Below are positions 7,992 to 15,924 of a DNA stretch of 16,497 bases, in pieces. The notes below the pieces were generated by a model. It saw only the letters and a program-made list of their open reading frames with translations, did not search any database and had not been told where the DNA came from. The stretch comes from a bacterium (GTDB lineage: Bacteria > BMS3Abin14). Position 1 is the first letter of the stretch. The number at the start of each line of letters is the position of its first letter. The DNA lies in the NCBI GenBank assembly GCA_029210545.1, contig JARGFV010000054.1, positions 1-16,497 of the forward strand. Direction: 5' to 3'. The position numbers and the translations under genes are program-made.

Positions 7992-8568
7992 GGGCGAAAA
8001 GGGCGATCTCCATGATCTCGGCGACCAGGTGAAGGACCAGGTGGTGAACTTCCTGGATCCTGGGTGTGGACCGGTCCGGGACGGTGAGGCAGATGTCGCA
8101 GAGCGGGTCAAGCCGGCTGCAGTCGGGCCCGGTCAGACTCACGGTCGCCATGGATTGGGCGTTGGCCCGTTCCAGGGCCTTGAGTACGTTGGCTGAAGCG
8201 CCGCTGGTGGTGAGAGCAAGCAGGACATCACCCTCCCGGCCCAGGGCTTCGACCTGTTTTGAAAATACCTGCTCGAAAGAGTAGTCGTTGGCGATCGATG
8301 TGAGGTTGGAGCTGTTGGTGGTGAGGGCCAGGGCGGGCAAGGGGCGGCGCTCCATGAGAAAACGGTTGACGAGCTCGGCGGCGAAATGCTGTGCGTCGGC
8401 CGCGCTCCCCCCGTTGCCGATGACGAGAATCTTCCCCCCGGACAGGATCGACTTGATCATCGTTTCCGCGATCCGGGCAACTGTCTTCGCCCTGTCGGTG
8501 CAGAAGTTCTCGATGAGGTCGGCGGCTTCGGCGCCCCGCTGGATAATGAGTTCTTCGAATCGCTTCAT
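7981..8568 (-). CDS. gmhA: Phosphoheptose isomerase (sedoheptulose 7-phosphate isomerase)
   Basis: 195 residues, full length. It converts sedoheptulose 7-phosphate to D-glycero-D-manno-heptose 7-phosphate, the first step to ADP-heptose for the lipopolysaccharide core. It is a single SIS domain: VIGNGGSAADAQHFAAELVN (49-68) binds the sugar phosphate, followed by NDYSFEQVFSKQVEALG (94-110) and LTTSGASANVLKAL. The catalytic pair of the E. coli enzyme, Glu65 and His180, falls at exactly the same numbers here (E65 in AAEL; H180 in VHHLVLH). The ATG at 8568 overlaps the rex stop by 4 nt, and the stop overlaps the next gene by 11 nt. Confidence 0.97.
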   Translation of the reverse strand: MKRFEELIIQRGAEAADLIENFCTDRAKTVARIAETMIKSILSGGKILVIGNGGSAADAQHFAAELVNRFLMERRPLPALALTTNSSNLTSIANDYSFEQVFSKQVEALGREGDVLLALTTSGASANVLKALERANAQSMATVSLTGPDCSRLDPLCDICLTVPDRSTPRIQEVHHLVLHLVAEIMEIALFAHGS

Positions 8569-9209
8569 TCGTTACTCAACTGGAACGCGAGTCCCTCTAG
8601 GTCGATGGCGAAATCGACGTTCTTGAGGATGCCCCCCGTCGAGATCTTGATGGTGGTCGGGGTGAAGTTGAGGATCCCCCGGACGCCGGCGTCGGTGAGC
8701 ATCTGGGCCACCCTGGCGGCGCTGTCAGGGTTGACGGCGATGATGCCGATCCTGATGGCCAGGGCGTGGATGACCCTCTGCATCTCTTCCAGAGGATAAA
8801 GGGGGATACCCTGGAAGCTTCCCATCTCCACCAGGACAGGGTCACGCTCGAAAATGGCCGATATCCTGAACCCCCGTTTGGCCAGGGAATCTGTACCAAG
8901 GAGGGCGAACCCGAGGTTCCCGGCCCCCACCAGGGCGCAGTTCCAGTCGCGGTCGATGCCGAGGGCCTTCTTGATGTCGAACTGGAGGTTCTCGACATAG
9001 TACCCGACACCCCGGACCCCGAATTCGCCGAAGTAGGCGAAATCCTTGCGTATCTGGGCAGGGTTGGTCCCGCATTTCCTGGCGATGTCCGAGGAGGAGA
9101 CCACCTTCTTGCCGGATCTCAGGAAGTCCTCGAGGCACCTGTCGTAAAGAGACAGCCTCCTTATCGTGGCATCCGGGATCTTGATGCGACTGACCTTTTT
9201 GAAAACCAT
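8565..9209 (-). CDS. rex: Redox-sensing transcriptional repressor Rex
   Basis: 214 residues, typical for the family. Rex binds operators when NADH is low and lets go when NADH is high; its targets are usually respiratory and fermentative genes. Residues ~1-85 are the winged helix (IPDATIRRLSLYDRCL, then RKDFAYFGEFGVRGVGY at 54-70). The NAD(H) domain follows, with GAGNLG (95-100), an acidic residue in AIFERDP (118-124), and NFTPT (181-185) near the end. I chose ATG 9209, preceded by AGAGGTGA. The frame stays open upstream to 9383, but only as a mirror of the cytochrome gene. Only 4 bp separate it from the 12-haem cytochrome gene, so it is probably co-transcribed with the b6f-like complex. I saw no complete Rex operator in the window. 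Confidence 0.95.
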   Translation of the reverse strand: MVFKKVSRIKIPDATIRRLSLYDRCLEDFLRSGKKVVSSSDIARKCGTNPAQIRKDFAYFGEFGVRGVGYYVENLQFDIKKALGIDRDWNCALVGAGNLGFALLGTDSLAKRGFRISAIFERDPVLVEMGSFQGIPLYPLEEMQRVIHALAIRIGIIAVNPDSAARVAQMLTDAGVRGILNFTPTTIKISTGGILKNVDFAIDLEGLAFQLSNE

Positions 9210-9213
9210 GGCT

Positions 9214-10569
9214 TCACCTCTTTTTGCTGTTGTCTGATATCCTCTCCAGGTCCCCGATGGTCTTTTCGAGGATGGATAGAGCGTAATCCCGGTTGTGGAC
9301 CGGCACGCCGAAACGGACGAACCGGATGTTCCGGTCGGCCAGTTCGATGATCCGCCGGTCACCGGGGGACCGATCCTTTCCAAGGTCGGCCCGGATACGG
9401 TCCAGGAGGTCCTGGTCCCTGGTGAGGGCGGTTTCGATCTCTTTTTTCCAGGTGCCGATCATCTTTTCGTAGCCGGGGATGTGACACCCTTTGCAGGCCG
9501 CCTCCACGGCGATCATGGTGGTTCCCGAAAACTCCCTCTCATTCCCGTCAACAGGTGTTGGAACGGTGTGGCATCCGTTGCACCCGACACGGGCCTCGTG
9601 CATGGGTGACGGCAGGGGAGAGACCCCCGTTGCCCCTGTTCCGCTGTACATGCTCCAGATCCCGCTGTGCCTGCTCTCGTGGCAGGAAGAACAGCCGAGG
9701 GCGGCACTGGAAGAGTCCCCGTGGCTGGTGTGCCTGATGGGCTCGTGACAGGTACCGCACTTTACCTTGTGGTCGGTGACGTGCATCCTGTGAAGGAGCT
9801 CCACAGGTTCGCTCAGCGCCGCTTCCATGGATTGGCCGTGACACTCGACGCACGAACAGGTCCTGATCCGTCCGTCACCACCGACGACCCCCTGATGGCA
9901 GCTCCGGCATGGCACTCCCCGGTCAACGTAGGTCCCGTGCTCGAAGGGCTCCTCCCGTATCCCCGCGGAGAAATCGAGGCCGGCAGGGTCATGGCAAATG
10001 GTGCACTTCGCCGTGGCCGGCTCTTGGCCGTTGGCCTTGAAGTGGCAGATAAAACATGCGTCCTCAACGACAGTGACGTGTTCCCCCATGGCGACCCGCG
10101 AGTGGCAAGTCGTGCATCTCAGGATCTTGCCGCGTCTCAGGCGCTGAAGGTGTGGAGTGTGATCGAAAGTGATGTTGTCGGCGAAGGTTACCCGGCCGTC
10201 GAGCAGCCTCCGGGAGTGACACTCTTCCGTCAGGCAGTTGGCGTCGCTGACCTCGGCCCTGGAGTGTTCGCCGTAGGCGCGGGTCAGGTAACTCGCCACC
10301 TGGCCAAGGGCGCGGAACTCCGGGACGAACTGCTGTTCGTCCGTTGGTTCGAGGTGGCAGTCGACGCAGGGGACATTGACGTGCGCCGAGCTCTTCCAGT
10401 CCTCGTAATAAGGCCTCATGATATGGCAGGTGTTGCCGCAGAAGATCGCCGAATTGGTGATCTCCATGACGCTCAACGCTCCGAGGACGACAGCGACGAA
10501 CGCCAGGAGGAGGATCTCGTAGAACCGGAGCCTCCGCATTACCGTGAATATACGGGTGAGGAATTTCAT
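9214..10569 (-). CDS. NapC/NirT-type dodecahaem cytochrome c, membrane-anchored
   Basis: 451 residues from ATG 10569. Residues ~16-38 form an N-terminal membrane anchor, directly followed by the NapC/NirT-type start ITNSAIFCGNTCHIMRPYYED. I count 12 haem-binding sites: ten CXXCH plus one CX3CH (residues 44-49) and one CX4CH (residues 112-118). The last ~90 residues carry no haem site and are helical and charged. The protein should face the periplasm and pass electrons from the membrane complex to soluble or outer-membrane cytochromes. NapC/NirT proteins often oxidise quinol themselves. The start overlaps the 9-haem gene by 4 nt (ATGA). The frame is open to 10806 upstream, but that part mirrors the neighbour. 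It is the last subunit gene of the b6f-like cluster, 4 bp before rex. Confidence 0.9.
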   Translation of the reverse strand: MKFLTRIFTVMRRLRFYEILLLAFVAVVLGALSVMEITNSAIFCGNTCHIMRPYYEDWKSSAHVNVPCVDCHLEPTDEQQFVPEFRALGQVASYLTRAYGEHSRAEVSDANCLTEECHSRRLLDGRVTFADNITFDHTPHLQRLRRGKILRCTTCHSRVAMGEHVTVVEDACFICHFKANGQEPATAKCTICHDPAGLDFSAGIREEPFEHGTYVDRGVPCRSCHQGVVGGDGRIRTCSCVECHGQSMEAALSEPVELLHRMHVTDHKVKCGTCHEPIRHTSHGDSSSAALGCSSCHESRHSGIWSMYSGTGATGVSPLPSPMHEARVGCNGCHTVPTPVDGNEREFSGTTMIAVEAACKGCHIPGYEKMIGTWKKEIETALTRDQDLLDRIRADLGKDRSPGDRRIIELADRNIRFVRFGVPVHNRDYALSILEKTIGDLERISDNSKKR

Positions 10570-11894
10570 CTGCCGTGCCGCTCCTGTTCTCGCTGCCTGG
10601 CCTCGGGGCTGCCCAGAGCGTGTCTCCGGTGCAGCTCCTTCTCGATGAAGTTCAGCTTCACGGCGAGGAGGAGGAAGATCCCTGCCGAAAGCAGGCCAAG
10701 GAGAAGGAAAACGAAGCTTCTTATCCTTCTTTCGAGGAAATGGTCCCGGGACAGGTTCAAGGAGGCCATCATCTTCACTTTGGCCATCCCTGTCAACTCT
10801 TCCCACTGTGTGTCCACGGAATGGAGGGCCGACTCAACCTGGACCAGCCAGCTGTAGGCTTCCCTGTTATACTGGTCGATCCGGCTCGTCTGGATCCCGC
10901 CCAACGCAAGTTCCAGGGATGTCTGTTTCAGCTCCTCGAGGAGGCTCATGGCACGAGTGAGGCTGCTGTCAATGGCCCTGCCCTGCTCCCAGGGTCCGCT
11001 GCCCGTCGGATGACAGCTCCAGCAACGGTCCGAGATCCGTCCCACCAGTTCCTCGAGCCCCGTGGCCTGCGTGCGGTGATGGTCGTGGCAGTCAGTGCAG
11101 GCAGGCTGTCCCACGCTGAGGAGGGAACGGCCGTGAGGCCCCTGTCGGTAGTACGCCAGCTCCCGGTTATGACACCTTCCGCAGATCCGGGCGCTGACGA
11201 CGGGGCCCGGTGTCAGAGCCCGGTGGGCGCCGTGACAGTCGACGCAGGACGGGGCGTTGAGGTTGCGGCCCTCCTCCAGGGCGTTGAAGTGGACCCCCTC
11301 GAGGTAGCTTTTTGCCGTGGAGTCCCGGGCCAGGTCTCCCGCGCCGTGGCATCCCAGGCATTGCTTTACGGAATCCGTCCCAAACAGGGGTGAAGAGGGG
11401 ACGGCGACAGGAACGATCCCATGGGCGCCGTGACAGGTGACGCAGGTAGGACCACCATGGCCGTCCAGGATACTTTTTCCGTGAGGCCCCGAAAGGAACT
11501 GGTTCAGCTGGCCGGTGGGCAGGACCGGGCTGGAGATCCGGTCGCTGTCCGAGTGACAGCCTCCGCACAGCCGCACACTGTCCATGCCCTCCGGGGCGCC
11601 GATGAACCCTTTCCCGGGGTCCATGGCCCTCTCGAGGCGCTTTGGGTCGCCACCGTGGCAGTCGGTGCAAAGCAGGCCGGCCAGCCGGTGGATATCGCTC
11701 TCCCAACGCTCTGCGGGCCTGGCGTTTTCGGTATCCAGGTTTGCGTGGCACGAAATGCAGGAACTGTCTTCATGACCGGAGTTGGCCAACAGGGGAAAAG
11801 CCAGGATCCCCAGTACGAGGATGCCCACAAAAACGATCCTTGGTGGGATCTTCTCTGCACTTTGCACCCTGCACTTTGCACTGATTCTCTTCAT
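10566..11894 (-). CDS. Nonahaem cytochrome c with N- and C-terminal membrane segments
   Basis: 442 residues from ATG 11894, which overlaps the preceding stop by 4 nt. A TTG two codons upstream (11900) is less likely. Residues ~19-37 are a signal peptide or anchor. Nine CXXCH sites follow (first at 46-50, CISCH), several with HG or HGK pairs that often supply distal haem ligands. A coiled, haem-free region (SLTRAMSLLEELKQ..., ~320-370) leads to a C-terminal membrane helix (RSFVFLLLGLLSAGIFLLLA) and a basic cytoplasmic tail. It probably serves as the first c-type electron acceptor of the b6f-like complex, in place of cytochrome f or c1. Oddity: its first codons (KCRVQSAE) are encoded by a TGCA-N3 heptad repeat (11856-11883), which suggests that repeat DNA has become coding sequence. 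Confidence 0.9.
   Translation of the reverse strand: MKRISAKCRVQSAEKIPPRIVFVGILVLGILAFPLLANSGHEDSSCISCHANLDTENARPAERWESDIHRLAGLLCTDCHGGDPKRLERAMDPGKGFIGAPEGMDSVRLCGGCHSDSDRISSPVLPTGQLNQFLSGPHGKSILDGHGGPTCVTCHGAHGIVPVAVPSSPLFGTDSVKQCLGCHGAGDLARDSTAKSYLEGVHFNALEEGRNLNAPSCVDCHGAHRALTPGPVVSARICGRCHNRELAYYRQGPHGRSLLSVGQPACTDCHDHHRTQATGLEELVGRISDRCWSCHPTGSGPWEQGRAIDSSLTRAMSLLEELKQTSLELALGGIQTSRIDQYNREAYSWLVQVESALHSVDTQWEELTGMAKVKMMASLNLSRDHFLERRIRSFVFLLLGLLSAGIFLLLAVKLNFIEKELHRRHALGSPEARQREQERHGR
11856..11883. repeat. Heptad repeat TGCA-N3 (four copies) inside a gene start
   Basis: TGCA recurs at 11856, 11863, 11870 and 11877, exactly every 7 bp, giving a 13-bp direct repeat (CTGCACTTTGCAC) at 11855 and 11869. 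On the minus strand it encodes residues ~4-13 of the nonahaem cytochrome. It is analogous to the AGCT-N3 array at 1026-1073. Confidence 0.85.
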
Positions 11895-12325
11895 CCCCAA
11901 CCCCCGCTGTGGAGAAGGAGCGACAGGACGAAAAACAGGATGAAGAAAAGGAAAGAAATGACCAGGAAAAGGCGTTTTTGAAGCCGTCGCCGTCCCGAGC
12001 GGTCCAGGATGGGCAGCAGGACGAACCCGAGGAGCAAGACAGCGGTCACGGAGGATGTGAGCGTCCGGGAACCTATGATCCTCTCGGCCATGATGGCCGG
12101 TTTGAGGATCCAGACCACCTTGATCTCCGGATCGGGCCCGGTGAGGAGAGGGTCGGCAGCCCTGTCCAGTGATGGAGGGAACGCCGCTGACAGGAAGGCG
12201 ATGAGGGCAAATGCCGCCGCTACAACCATGAAACCGCGGATGACATAATTAGGGTAGAAGGGGTATTCGACACCGTCCCGCTTGCGCAGCCCCTTTTTCC
12301 TCACCCGGTAGGCTTTCCTCGTCAC
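11891..12325 (-). CDS. Cytochrome b C-terminal part (subunit IV-like) with altered Qo motif
   Basis: 144 residues from GTG 12325 (GTGA overlap with the b6-like gene). The frame is open to 12553, but that part mirrors the neighbour. After a basic start and NYVIRGF come three membrane helices (~28-50, ~88-107, ~119-139). PDPEIK (64-69) and LLPILDRS (103-110) match subunit IV (PetD) and the C-terminal half of cytochrome b. The family's PEWY motif should follow PDPEIK. Here residues 70-73 are V-V-W-I, so the Glu that takes a proton from quinol at the Qo site and the Tyr are gone; I checked the codons GTG GTC TGG ATC directly. It should pair with the b6-like subunit. Either Qo chemistry is changed or the protein is chiefly structural. 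Confidence 0.85.
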   Translation of the reverse strand: MTRKAYRVRKKGLRKRDGVEYPFYPNYVIRGFMVVAAAFALIAFLSAAFPPSLDRAADPLLTGPDPEIKVVWILKPAIMAERIIGSRTLTSSVTAVLLLGFVLLPILDRSGRRRLQKRLFLVISFLFFILFFVLSLLLHSGGWG

Positions 12326-13032
12326 AGCGGCTCCGATATGCCGAGCTTCCGCACGATCGCGAAATGGGCCGTCATGAAAACGGTGGTCACCGCCGGCAGG
12401 ATGAAGACATGAAAAACGTAGAACCTTGTGAGGCTGGCGCCGTTGACCTGCTCCCCTCCCCGGAGGAACAGCTTGATCTGGTTTCCCGCGAGGGGCAGGG
12501 TGCCCACGAGGTCGGTCCAGTATACCGCTGACCAGTAAGCGGATCGGGTCCACGGCAGGATGCTGCCGGTGAGGAAAAAGCCGGCCGTGAACAGGAGCAG
12601 TGCCGAACCGATGACCCAGTTGAGGTCCCTCGGCTTCTGGTAGGCGCCGGTAACGAAGACCCTCAGGGAGTGGACGATGATGGCAGCCAGCATCAACGTT
12701 CCGGCCCAGTAGTGGACCGTGCGGAAGAGCCAGCCGTAAGGAGCAGGGCCGGAAAGGTAGAGGATGCTGCGATGGGCATCAGGATCCGCCGGCACGTAGA
12801 AGAACATCAGGAGAAGCCCCGACAGCACCTGGACGATAAACAGGGCAAAGGCGAGGCCCCCGAAACATCCCCACCAGGGGATGTACGGGATCGGTCGGCC
12901 CAGGGCCTTCTCGATGGTCTGCCTGAGGGAGAGCCGCCGGTCGAGGGGACCGTAGATGAGCCCGCGTATGCCGATCCAGTCCAGGAGATCCCTCAGCAGG
13001 CTTTGACCCTGCCGTTCGTCGCGGCCGCTCAC
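12322..13032 (-). CDS. Cytochrome b6-like subunit (cytochrome b N-terminal part)
   Basis: 236 residues from GTG 13032 (GTGA overlap with the Rieske gene). Four membrane helices carry the two b-haems. The ligands H107/H121 in helix B (13 residues between) and H208/H223 in helix D (14 residues between) are all present; the 14-residue spacing is that of b6, not of mitochondrial-type cytochrome b. Cys56 in WWGCFGGL lines up with the cysteine that binds the extra haem ci/cn in b6f (YCLGG in plants and cyanobacteria). Other b6 marks are GSILPW (156-161), LRGGEQVNGASLTRFYVFHV and the ending VRKLGISEPL, very close to IRKQGISGPL in plant b6. Role: transmembrane electron transfer in a quinol-cytochrome c oxidoreductase. 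Confidence 0.95.
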   Translation of the reverse strand: MSGRDERQGQSLLRDLLDWIGIRGLIYGPLDRRLSLRQTIEKALGRPIPYIPWWGCFGGLAFALFIVQVLSGLLLMFFYVPADPDAHRSILYLSGPAPYGWLFRTVHYWAGTLMLAAIIVHSLRVFVTGAYQKPRDLNWVIGSALLLFTAGFFLTGSILPWTRSAYWSAVYWTDLVGTLPLAGNQIKLFLRGGEQVNGASLTRFYVFHVFILPAVTTVFMTAHFAIVRKLGISEPL

Positions 13033-13472
13033 ATTGCCCTCCCCGCCACGTGGACGCGGTTTCCCTCGATCCGGACCGGGAGGGTCTCAAGCGGTCTCGT
13101 GGCAAGGCCCCACAGAACGTTTCCATGCCGGTCAAAGGTGCATCCATGGCCGCTGCAGACCAGGACATTCCGACCCGCGTCCCACACCAGCTCGGAGCCC
13201 CGGTAGGTACAGACTCCGGACAGCGCCACGATCTCGTGGCCCTTCTTGACAAGGATCCAGGGTGTGGAGGCGTATTCGATTTCCAGGGCCTGTCCCGGGG
13301 GTATCTCCTCGAGGTTTGCTGCGGGGATGAGGGTTCCTGAAAGAACAGGAGGGGTCTGTCCGGGTTGAAGAAACCTCACCGTGGGATAGAAGACCGCACC
13401 CGCGGCGATGAGGATCAGAAGCCCCAGGAGGTAGTCGGTCCATCGGTAGGTGGAACGGGCAGGGGAGGTCAA
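13029..13472 (-). CDS. Rieske-type iron-sulphur protein with altered cluster ligands
   Basis: 147 residues. The start appears to be TTG 13472, with GGGGGTGA upstream on the minus strand. Residues ~13-34 are one membrane helix (DYLLGLLILIAAGAVFY), followed by a short hinge and a Rieske fold. Box 1 reads C88-T-Y90-R-G-S93 instead of C-T-H-L-G-C: the first His ligand is Tyr and the disulphide Cys is Ser. Box 2 reads C106-S-G-H109-G-C111 instead of C-P-C-H-G-S: the ligands C106 and H109 are kept, the disulphide Cys is Gly, and a new Cys stands after the His-Gly. The codons (TGT ACC TAC; TGC AGC GGC CAT GGA TGC) were read directly. It leads the b6f-like operon. The cluster may bind with 2Cys-1His plus another ligand, have a shifted potential, or be absent. 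Confidence 0.9.
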   Translation of the reverse strand: MTSPARSTYRWTDYLLGLLILIAAGAVFYPTVRFLQPGQTPPVLSGTLIPAANLEEIPPGQALEIEYASTPWILVKKGHEIVALSGVCTYRGSELVWDAGRNVLVCSGHGCTFDRHGNVLWGLATRPLETLPVRIEGNRVHVAGRAM

Positions 13473-13798: not shown

Positions 13799-14665
13799 TC
13801 AGTGGAACTCGCTTATGGCGGAATAGATGATGAACAGGATCATGATGAGACCCGCCCCATAGGCCATGAAACCGATGATCCTGGCCCAGATAAGGGAGAT
13901 CCTGGTCGGGGGGGTCGTCTCGAGGGTGTCCAGTCTGCCCTGGTCCACCATCCGCTGGTACTCGAGGGGCCTTTCGTGGATGAACTCCTCCTCGTTGATC
14001 CTTCCGGTAAAGATGACGTGGTCGAGGGGGAACTTTTCGGGTCTCAAGTGGGTGTTGAAAAAGTGGATCGTGAAGATGAACCCGGCCGCCAGAAGCGCCT
14101 CGTCTGAATGCAGTATGATGGCGATGTTGAAGGTCCACCCCGGGACCACCTTGGCGAACGCTTCCGGGAACCACAGCATCAGGCCGGAAAAACCGATGAT
14201 CCCGACGCCCCAGAAGACCGCCAGGTAGTCGAACTTCTCCCAATAGGTGAACCGGTCGAACTTCGGCCGTTCCCGCACTCCCAGGAACCAGAGAATGTGG
14301 CCGCCCACATCCTGCACGTCCTTGATCCATGGCACCATGGAATCAGGGCCGAAAAACCACTTCAGGAGCGGTTCCTCACGGACCTTGACAATGTAATAGA
14401 TGGCGTAAAGGACATGGAGGACGAAGTACAGCCAGGTGATGGCGCCGCACACGCGGTGGATGTAACCCGCCGTGCCGATCCCTCCCATGAAGCGCGCAAG
14501 GGCCTGGGCCCACCCGGTGTGATAATACTTGAGGGGCATTCCTGTCAGGACGAGCCCCAGGAAACTGATAATGATGAGAGCGTGGAGAAAGCGATGATAA
14601 TAATTGAACCGGAAATACCAGCGCTCCCGGGTTCCGCTGTTTTCTGTTTGAGTGTGTTCGGTCAT
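13799..14665 (-). CDS. Dihaem b-type cytochrome, HydC/FdnI-like membrane subunit
   Basis: 288 residues with about five membrane helices (~25-42, ~68-93, ~146-165, ~183-205, ~259-283). His residues placed to bind two b-haems are H28, H70, H84, H186 and H201 (YYHRFLHALII; GYIHRV...FVLHVLY; AIILHSDE; FTIHFFNTH). This is the pattern of the membrane cytochrome b of formate dehydrogenases and Ni/Fe hydrogenases, which exchanges electrons with quinone. ATG 14665 is preceded by GGGAGGT seven bases upstream. It starts 17 bp after the 11-haem gene. In Geobacter CbcL a multihaem c domain and a domain of this kind are fused; here they would be two proteins. The likely job is quinol oxidation with transfer to the partner cytochrome. 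The loop at ~95-140 and the acidic segment at ~210-255 are larger than in simple b561 proteins. Confidence 0.9.
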   Translation of the reverse strand: MTEHTQTENSGTRERWYFRFNYYHRFLHALIIISFLGLVLTGMPLKYYHTGWAQALARFMGGIGTAGYIHRVCGAITWLYFVLHVLYAIYYIVKVREEPLLKWFFGPDSMVPWIKDVQDVGGHILWFLGVRERPKFDRFTYWEKFDYLAVFWGVGIIGFSGLMLWFPEAFAKVVPGWTFNIAIILHSDEALLAAGFIFTIHFFNTHLRPEKFPLDHVIFTGRINEEEFIHERPLEYQRMVDQGRLDTLETTPPTRISLIWARIIGFMAYGAGLIMILFIIYSAISEFH

Positions 14666-14682
14666 TATAGATACCTCCCGGA

Positions 14683-15831
14683 TCAGTGGGCCCCGCCGGA
14701 CCCTTTACCCGCATGCTCGATATAAGCCCGGATGAACCACAGCAGGGTGTGGATCCCGAAGAAGGCGAACACACCTGAAAGCAGGATGACCATGGCCAGA
14801 TAAACGTAGTAGAGCAGGGGGTTCTTCCCGGCATCATGGTAATCGGCGTGGGGCATGTAGAGGGTGAAGTTCCTGTTGGCTCCGGGGTGGCACTTGCCGC
14901 AGGTGCCGATAATGTTGTCAGGATGCACCATGGACGCCGGGTCCGACCCGGCGAGGATGCCGTGGGAACCGTGGCAGTCAGGGCACTGCGCCGCTCTTGT
15001 GTACCCCATGCCGGTGACCTGCCCGTGATAATTCTTTCTGAAGGTGTAGCCCATCTCCTCGTGGCACGCCGAGCACCGTTTGACCACCGTCAGCAGGAAC
15101 TCGTCGTCCATGGCTCTTTCGGTATCGTGGGCTGAGTGGCACGAGATGCAGACCGGCGCGTCATCGGGACTGTCTGCGGATATCTTGCCGTGGACACTGG
15201 TCCTGTAGATCTCGACGATCCCCCGGTGGCAGGAAGCGCAGGTGTCGTTGATGTTGGCGCGTGCCACCCGGGATCCTTCGTCGCCGGCTCCCCTGATATT
15301 GTGGTTGCCGTGGCAGTCGTTGCAGACGGCGGAAAACACGACGCCGCTCCTGATAAGGACGACACCGTGGACGCCGGTCTCGTATTCGGCGCACACGTCA
15401 GGGCTGCCCTGATCGGAGTGACACTGGCAGCAGGTCGCCGGGATGTTGAAATCGTAAACGGTTGAACGGGAGTCTGTCCCGGGCAGGATGCCGTGGGTGC
15501 CGTGGCAATCGGAACATTCAGCAGGGTGTCCCGCGGCCTCTATCTCCCCGGTCATGTCGTCGTGACAGTTCTCGCAGGCGACTTTCCCGAGATCCTCTTC
15601 ATGTTCGTCTTCCGCGTCGGCCGCGTCCTCGTGACAGTCCGTGCAGTCCAGGTCACCGTGGACGGAAGCTCCGAAGGTCCCTTCATCTATATATAGGGAG
15701 ATCTCCCTGCCCTGGACGGTTTTGGTGAGAGAGTCGTCCGAGTGGCAGTCGAAGCAGTCCGAAGTGGTGAGAGCCTGGGCCGGGGACGCGGCAACGAGGA
15801 TCATGGCGGCGATCCATAAGATATTCCTCAT
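14683..15831 (-). CDS. Undecahaem cytochrome c with C-terminal membrane anchor
   Basis: 382 residues from ATG 15831, preceded by AAAGGGGA; the frame extends to 15909 but lacks a better start. Residues 1-20 are a signal peptide (cleavage after PAQA). Eleven CXXCH sites start at residues 26, 63, 86, 106, 134, 170, 198, 228, 253, 283 and 311; the fifth is CCQCH. Many are followed by HG or HGIL, typical of tightly packed bis-His haems. The sequence is acidic at ~69-82 (DAADAEDEHEED). A C-terminal helix (~338-368) anchors it with the c-haems in the periplasm. It should accept electrons from the b-type cytochrome encoded 17 bp downstream. It lies 127 bp after atpE, behind a terminator, so it has its own promoter. 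Confidence 0.92.
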   Translation of the reverse strand: MRNILWIAAMILVAASPAQALTTSDCFDCHSDDSLTKTVQGREISLYIDEGTFGASVHGDLDCTDCHEDAADAEDEHEEDLGKVACENCHDDMTGEIEAAGHPAECSDCHGTHGILPGTDSRSTVYDFNIPATCCQCHSDQGSPDVCAEYETGVHGVVLIRSGVVFSAVCNDCHGNHNIRGAGDEGSRVARANINDTCASCHRGIVEIYRTSVHGKISADSPDDAPVCISCHSAHDTERAMDDEFLLTVVKRCSACHEEMGYTFRKNYHGQVTGMGYTRAAQCPDCHGSHGILAGSDPASMVHPDNIIGTCGKCHPGANRNFTLYMPHADYHDAGKNPLLYYVYLAMVILLSGVFAFFGIHTLLWFIRAYIEHAGKGSGGAH

Positions 15832-15859
15832 TAGTTTCCCCTTTAAGCGGTGTCCGATA

Positions 15860-15881
15860 GCCCTTCGAAAAACCGGAGGGC
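15860..15881. repeat. Small inverted repeat in the cytochrome leader
   Basis: GCCCT (15860-15864) pairs with AGGGC (15877-15881), 29 bp upstream of the ATG at 15831. It is short and may be chance. Confidence 0.3.
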
Positions 15882-15902
15882 ATTGAATAAAAAAAGTATT
15901 CC

Positions 15903-15924
15903 TTTTCACAAGCGGTCGTGAAAA
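15903..15924. promoter_or_regulatory. Operator-like inverted repeat upstream of the undecahaem gene
   Basis: TTTTCAC (15903-15909) and GTGAAAA (15918-15924) form a perfect inverted repeat with an 8-bp spacer. It overlaps the T-run of the atpE terminator and lies ~72 bp upstream of the cytochrome start. The half-sites face the wrong way for a Rex operator (TTGTGAA-N4-TTCACAA). Which regulator would bind, if any, cannot be said. Confidence 0.3.

Follow-up and report, generated by a model that had tools for sequence, protein, structure and literature searches.

A b6f-Type Gene Cluster with an Altered p-Side Quinol Site and 21 Predicted c-Type Haems in a Candidate Bacterial Phylum

Comparison with Described bc Complexes

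The bc complexes are regarded as defined by bifurcation at the p-side quinol site, and a Rieske/b6/subunit IV core associated with multihaem cytochromes is already known from anammox bacteria and from the Geobacter ext cluster (PMC12954380, PMC5877670). Here, we analyzed a five-gene cluster of this kind, located at positions 9214–13472 (minus strand) of a 16,497-nucleotide stretch of DNA (contig JARGFV010000054.1, assembly GCA_029210545.1; the whole stretch is called the window below), which is one contig of a 2.72 Mb genome that is 97.5% complete. All five genes were confirmed at these coordinates, with short overlaps between adjacent genes; they encode a Rieske-fold protein, a cytochrome b6-type protein, a subunit IV-like protein, and c-type cytochromes with nine and 12 haems. 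The sequences indicate that the p-side quinol site is altered in three components, namely the Rieske protein, subunit IV at its PEWY motif, and the cytochrome b wall, and that selection has preserved the sites of haems bL, bH and ci along with both multihaem cytochromes. The balance of evidence slightly favors the reading that a b6f-type complex gave up quinol bifurcation and became a non-bifurcating quinone:multihaem oxidoreductase with an n-side quinone site only. Such a complex would probably act as a simple bridge, carrying electrons between the quinones of the membrane and the outer cytochromes.

The anammox complexes Kustd1480-1485 and Kuste4569-4574 are alike in having b6-like, subunit IV-like and Rieske proteins and a multihaem cytochrome c that replaces cytochrome f, but they have intact, high-potential Rieske clusters (above +300 mV) (PMC12954380). 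They also have NAD(P) oxidoreductase subunits, whereas none was seen at the window locus. Geobacter extMNOPQ was likened to the window cluster by its parts list, with the Rieske protein ExtO, the b-type protein ExtP, ExtQ, and the 12- and 10-haem cytochromes ExtM and ExtN (PMC5877670). ExtP was the best NCBIfam match of the window b6 protein (198.8 bits, below the cut-off of 290). This model is broad, matching a Bacillus control genome and many b6 proteins, so its top rank says little, and membership of the Ext family was rejected. The two ExtP matches above the cut-off (L116 and L117) resemble QcrB of the Bacillus type and go with a canonical CKHLGC/CPCHGA Rieske protein. No extHIJKL neighbors (rhodanese, porin) were recognized by eye among the open reading frames of the window, a short contig for which no profile search was made.

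Cytochromes b6f and bc1 share with the window complex the b-haem ligands, the haem ci cysteine, the fold and the core gene order, but the window complex lacks cytochrome f or c1 and has lost the Rieske ligand, the PEWY motif and the cytochrome b tyrosine. Indeed, no match to cytochrome f was found among the five proteins, which include multihaem c-type cytochromes instead. The CbcL and CbcBA menaquinol:cytochrome oxidoreductases would work alike, in that b-haems connect menaquinone with a multihaem cytochrome and no bifurcation occurs, although their b-type subunits are of the HydC/FdnI family, whereas the window b6 protein belongs to PF00033 and is not a fused HydC/FdnI-multihaem c protein. 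Searches of an open-access library of papers yielded neither a bc complex with a ligandless Rieske subunit nor a non-bifurcating bc complex. The original prediction had presented the combination of substitutions as unfamiliar; the association of the core with multihaem cytochromes is not in itself new.

The Rieske-Fold Subunit

The Rieske-fold protein (13029–13472, minus strand; 147 residues with one N-terminal transmembrane helix) matches PF00355 at 43.4 bits (cut-off 20.3). Its two boxes read C88-T-Y90-R-G-S and C106-S-G-H109-G-C111; the first-box histidine ligand is replaced by Tyr90 and the disulfide cysteine pair by Ser93 and Gly108, while Cys88, Cys106 and His109 are retained. Among the 12 genomes sampled from the window's candidate phylum, a poorly known group of anaerobes, seven carry the cluster, and the Rieske proteins of the six relatives are 35–49% identical to that of the window. 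The first boxes begin with CTY in the window and with CTF, CTY, CTY, CTY, CTF and CSE in L011 to L016, respectively. The first histidine ligand is thus Tyr, Phe or Glu in all seven genomes, which leaves the Cys2His2 set incomplete. Cys88, Cys106 and His109 are invariant in the seven proteins, both disulfide cysteines are absent from all of them (Ser or Gly at position 93; Gly, Ala or Ser at position 108), and position 111 is Cys or Gly. Changes of this kind are found in seven separately assembled genomes, which rules out sequencing error. The Tyr/His state named in the original prediction is not a defined alternative ligand state: Tyr90 is unlikely to act as a substitute ligand because Phe and Glu are also found at this position, and it was rejected as a clade-wide rule.

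An AlphaFold model of the window protein (predicted local distance difference test score of 84) kept the Rieske fold and matched the Chlorobaculum Rieske domain (8hn2) with a Z score of 17.0 and a root-mean-square deviation of 2.1 Å over 105 residues. NirD-type nitrite reductase subunits (3c0d, 4aiv) were also among the structural matches. Some NirD-type subunits are without the cluster.

These features also bear on the possibility that bifurcation persists with altered chemistry, in which a low-potential [2Fe-2S] or other cluster would be held by Cys88, Cys106 and His109 together with Tyr90 or Cys111, and other residues would take the quinol protons. The invariance of the three ligands and the intact fold agree with this possibility, as do the presence of Cys111 at the usual position of the cluster-bonding serine and the finding that bc1 does not strictly need the PEWY glutamate (PMC10583091). 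However, the candidates for a fourth ligand are variable at both positions, the L016 protein having Glu at 90 together with Gly at 111, and bulky aromatic residues occupy positions of the pocket, and we regard persistent bifurcation as improbable.

A plasmid search with the window Rieske protein returned 12 records, all of them distant; these were small subunits of Thermus arsenite oxidase and a few Rieske proteins of cyanobacteria. In another phylum, a small stand-alone Rieske-like protein (L137, 1495–1812) carries the boxes CTHKGG and CPWHGG.

The b-Type Core and the Quinol Site

The cytochrome b6-type protein (12322–13032, minus strand) matches PF00033 at 145 bits and was compared in an alignment of seven clade rows and 43 other rows. 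The histidines at positions 107, 121, 208 and 223, predicted ligands of haems bL and bH, have the b6 spacing and are invariant in all rows of both groups, and Cys56, which aligns with Cys35 of spinach b6 at the predicted haem ci site, is invariant in the seven clade members, so that the low-potential side is intact, as had been claimed. The subunit IV-like protein (11891–12325, minus strand) was matched weakly but consistently by PF00032 (19.7 bits, cut-off 20.7) and TIGR01156 (18.8 bits). Its PEWY position reads V70-V-W-I73, the acid residue being gone, and the seven genomes have VVWI, ALWI, TLWI, TLWI, PMWL, PSWF and PMWL at this site.

The wall of the quinol-oxidation (Qo) site in the window b6 protein is rebuilt, with Ser157 and Ser168 and with the aromatic residues Tyr171 and Trp172 at sites where Val/Ile and Gly/Val stand elsewhere. 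In b6 numbering, Tyr136 is found in 43 of 43 comparison rows and was lost in five of the seven clade members (Ser, Asp or His), Ala147 is replaced by Ser or Thr in the clade, Ile150 (Val or Ile in 43/43) by Tyr, Phe or Trp in all seven, and Val151 (Gly, Val, Met or Ala elsewhere) by Trp in all seven. We take the counterparts of Ile150 and Val151 to line the quinol pocket in bc1 structures. The changed conserved positions concentrate at residues 136–152 in the cd1 segment (5/13 versus 2/59, Fisher p 0.0016), bounds that were picked after the data were seen, and enrichment over the whole p-side half of b6 was not significant (p 0.09). In our own alignment, Tyr136 is the counterpart of Tyr147 of R. 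sphaeroides, and the window differs at all three positions of the Tyr147/Glu295/Tyr297 triad (Ser157, Val71 and Ile73), which are 94–99.9% conserved and showed no double changes in a published sequence set (PMC12199298). The bifurcating site was predicted to be altered from both sides, in the Rieske ligands and in the PEWY glutamate; this was confirmed, and the cytochrome b wall is altered too.

These changes could be neutral variants at tolerant positions of an ordinary b6f-type Q-cycle complex, since PEWY varies in nature and two of the same genomes encode bcc complexes with APWY and an intact Rieske protein (L017, 706–2619; L018, 6120–8490). The Rieske histidine ligand, however, is not tolerant in established bc1/b6f biochemistry, and its change is shared by no readable related locus outside the clade, which makes an ordinary Q-cycle very improbable. 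In these two genomes, the bcc complex has a single-chain cytochrome b adjoining a 7-haem cytochrome.

The Multihaem Cytochromes

The 9-haem cytochrome (10566–11894, minus strand; C-terminal transmembrane helix) has nine CXXCH motifs, and its family partners Rieske-b6-IV cassettes in many phyla. The 12-haem NapC/NrfH-type cytochrome (9214–10569, minus strand; N-terminal transmembrane anchor) has 10 CXXCH motifs, one CX3CH (position 45) and one CX4CH (position 113). Its first haem motif (residues 45–50) is CX3CH in the window and in five aligned relatives; the corresponding protein of a sister phylum has a normal CXXCH there and shares the CX4CH. A count of 12 is therefore fair, and the predicted total of 21 c-type haems (9 + 12) is right. 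The gene identities, positions and residues given beforehand (CTY/CSGHGC, VVWI, the four histidines and Cys56) were likewise all found as described.

The N-terminal NapC/NrfH domain of the 12-haem protein carries the CHxM signature of haem 1, and CymA/ImcH-type proteins oxidize quinol by such means (PMC6295460, PMC12307469). The main rival explanation is that this domain is a p-side quinol-oxidizing or quinone-reducing site, the b6, subunit IV and Rieske proteins serving as an anchor or a second n-side site; the complex would then connect the multihaem wire either with both quinone sites or with that on the p-side alone. The same protein is nevertheless found in sister complexes with an intact Qo site, so it is no replacement by itself, and the b-haem and haem ci ligands kept in all seven genomes would be unneeded by a mere anchor. 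We consider this explanation rather unlikely.

Distribution and History of the Altered State

The gene order is the same in all seven genomes wherever the sequence is readable. Scanning 84,980 species genomes for the pattern of the second Rieske box, a search that would miss relatives with other box-2 sequences, confirmed only five relatives, on contigs of the phylum relatives already found. The comparison set was built by a b6 family profile search of 386 genomes, from which 40 loci were then taken. The best b6 matches outside the phylum (274–292 bits) came from six loci, in two other small phyla, whose genes run Rieske-b6-IV-9-haem. The closest known clusters of this type belong to a sister candidate phylum (genomes G053, G198, G330 and G386; loci L062, L063, L065 and L123). 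Three of the six nearest loci (L062, L063 and L065) have the same five parts, with an NrfH-type 12-haem protein, encoded upstream of the Rieske gene, that is 38% identical to that of the window over about 430 residues. The sister clusters differ in that their Rieske boxes (CTHLGC or CPHLGC/CPCHAA) and IKPEWY are intact, and in G386, of which only the Rieske and subunit IV proteins were read, an intact Rieske protein also goes with IKPEWY.

In all other readable related loci, the first-box histidine is kept and the PEWY site reads PEWY, PEWF or PDWY; the two bcc complexes L017 and L018 are the exceptions. No b6-type locus with both sites readable was altered at only one of them. The Rieske protein was not machine-read in L075, where CTHLGC was seen by eye, or in L081, L084 and L085, which have no Rieske gene in the stretch examined; PEWY was unread in L072, L077, L097 and L117. 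In the b6 tree, the seven proteins form one clade (support 100/100) with a stem of 0.76 changes per site and a single state change. Because the nearest five-part relatives are intact at all sites, the altered state is, by these sequence comparisons, derived and arose once, and the losses took place together or in close succession, as one independent event.

The ratios of non-synonymous to synonymous substitution rates (dN/dS) between the two closest copies were 0.31 for the Rieske gene, 0.24 for b6 and 0.29 for subunit IV, pointing to continued purifying selection. A decaying, functionless complex might be suspected from the faster divergence of the Rieske and subunit IV proteins relative to b6, but they diverge likewise in the intact outgroup. 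Together with these ratios, the intact reading frames, the invariant haem ligands and the gene order conserved in seven genomes leave decay with hardly any credibility.

The sister NrfH-type protein also differs from that of the window in carrying an N-terminal response-regulator receiver domain (PF00072), detected in L062 (8139–9926; E value 1.7e-16) and L065 (10183–11997; 1.7e-18) and recognized by eye in L063 (10200–12002). Linking a receiver to a multihaem cytochrome via a membrane helix is an odd arrangement that could act as a redox or signaling switch.

A Possible One-Site Electron Path

If bifurcation has been given up, the p-side quinol reaction would be gone, and the Rieske subunit would persist for scaffolding or docking, or would carry a modified cluster of low potential. 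Between the array of 21 periplasmic haems and n-side menaquinone, electrons would travel one by one via haems bL, bH and ci. The flow may run from low-potential periplasmic donors to menaquinone, whose reduction, with proton uptake from the cytoplasm, would build membrane potential; reverse flow, driven by the membrane potential, would also be possible. A candidate donor is a periplasmic [NiFe] hydrogenase without its own anchor cytochrome b: the window genome encodes such an enzyme, with a twin-arginine-like signal on the small subunit, and no gene for a cytochrome b was recognized beside it. Haem-copper oxidase, bd oxidase and dsrA were not found in the window genome, and a low-potential anaerobic electron economy fits the loss of a high-potential branch. 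A haem-copper oxidase match was obtained in one relative of the phylum. The window genome yielded no other Rieske protein. The NrfA profile (PF02335) matched multihaem proteins only in part, and no clear NrfA was seen. More tentatively, and with somewhat less than even confidence, the whole clade may have abandoned the Q-cycle for electrogenic one-site n-side menaquinone:multihaem oxidoreductases, with the aromatic-rebuilt pocket bridging haem bL and the c-haems and with a clusterless or three-ligand Rieske protein.

Several points weigh against the loss of bifurcation. The invariance of Cys88, Cys106 and His109 suggests that something may still be bound, L014 and L016 still carry Tyr136 of b6, and a quinol site on the p-side could lie in the 12-haem protein, within its NrfH-like domain. 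Concerted evolution of the Rieske and PEWY sites, as originally proposed, agrees with the lack of alteration at one site only among the b6-type loci where both could be read, but a single event is not statistical evidence of repeated co-evolution; independent variation of the two sites is seen in the separate bcc family. Least certain are how far haem bL lies from the c-haems and which way electrons flow. In AlphaFold3 models of the related anammox complexes, the nearest c-haem lies 26–28 Å from the membrane cofactors (PMC12954380), which is too far for direct transfer, and closer docking would thus be needed in the window complex.

If the preferred reading is true, a natural clade under selection, with every part of the bifurcating site dismantled and the rest retained, would show that a bc core is able to operate purely as a wire for electrons across the membrane, which would bear on the evolution of the bc complex and on the coupling of periplasmic or extracellular electrons to quinone in organisms with only low-potential carriers. 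The clade would also offer a natural knock-out of the bifurcating site in which haem ci and the b-haems can be tested on their own.

Genomic Surroundings

The gene of the redox-sensing repressor Rex (8565–9233, minus strand) lies directly downstream of the 12-haem gene. It occurs at the cluster end in the window and in five of the six relatives, the sixth being masked there, and this adjacency suggests NADH/NAD+ control of the cluster. Four weak Rex operator matches were found upstream of the cluster versus 3.9 expected, none of them convincing in the window, and a promoter scan gave no more matches than expected by chance.

On the other side, two conserved neighbors form a split CbcL-like pair, with a b half (diheme-b, FdnI/HydC-like protein; 13799–14665, minus strand) and a c half (11-haem c-type cytochrome; 14683–15909, minus strand). 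This pair is about 62–82% identical among relatives, exceeding the conservation of the Rieske-b6 genes, and it is fused in L090 into a protein of 931 residues with 19 CXXCH motifs, the b part of which is 51% identical. Beside the sister complexes (L063, 12260–17936; L065, 12236–17960), there is a dense haem island comprising a 16-haem cytochrome and two protein pairs, each with an FdnI-like b and a multihaem c member.

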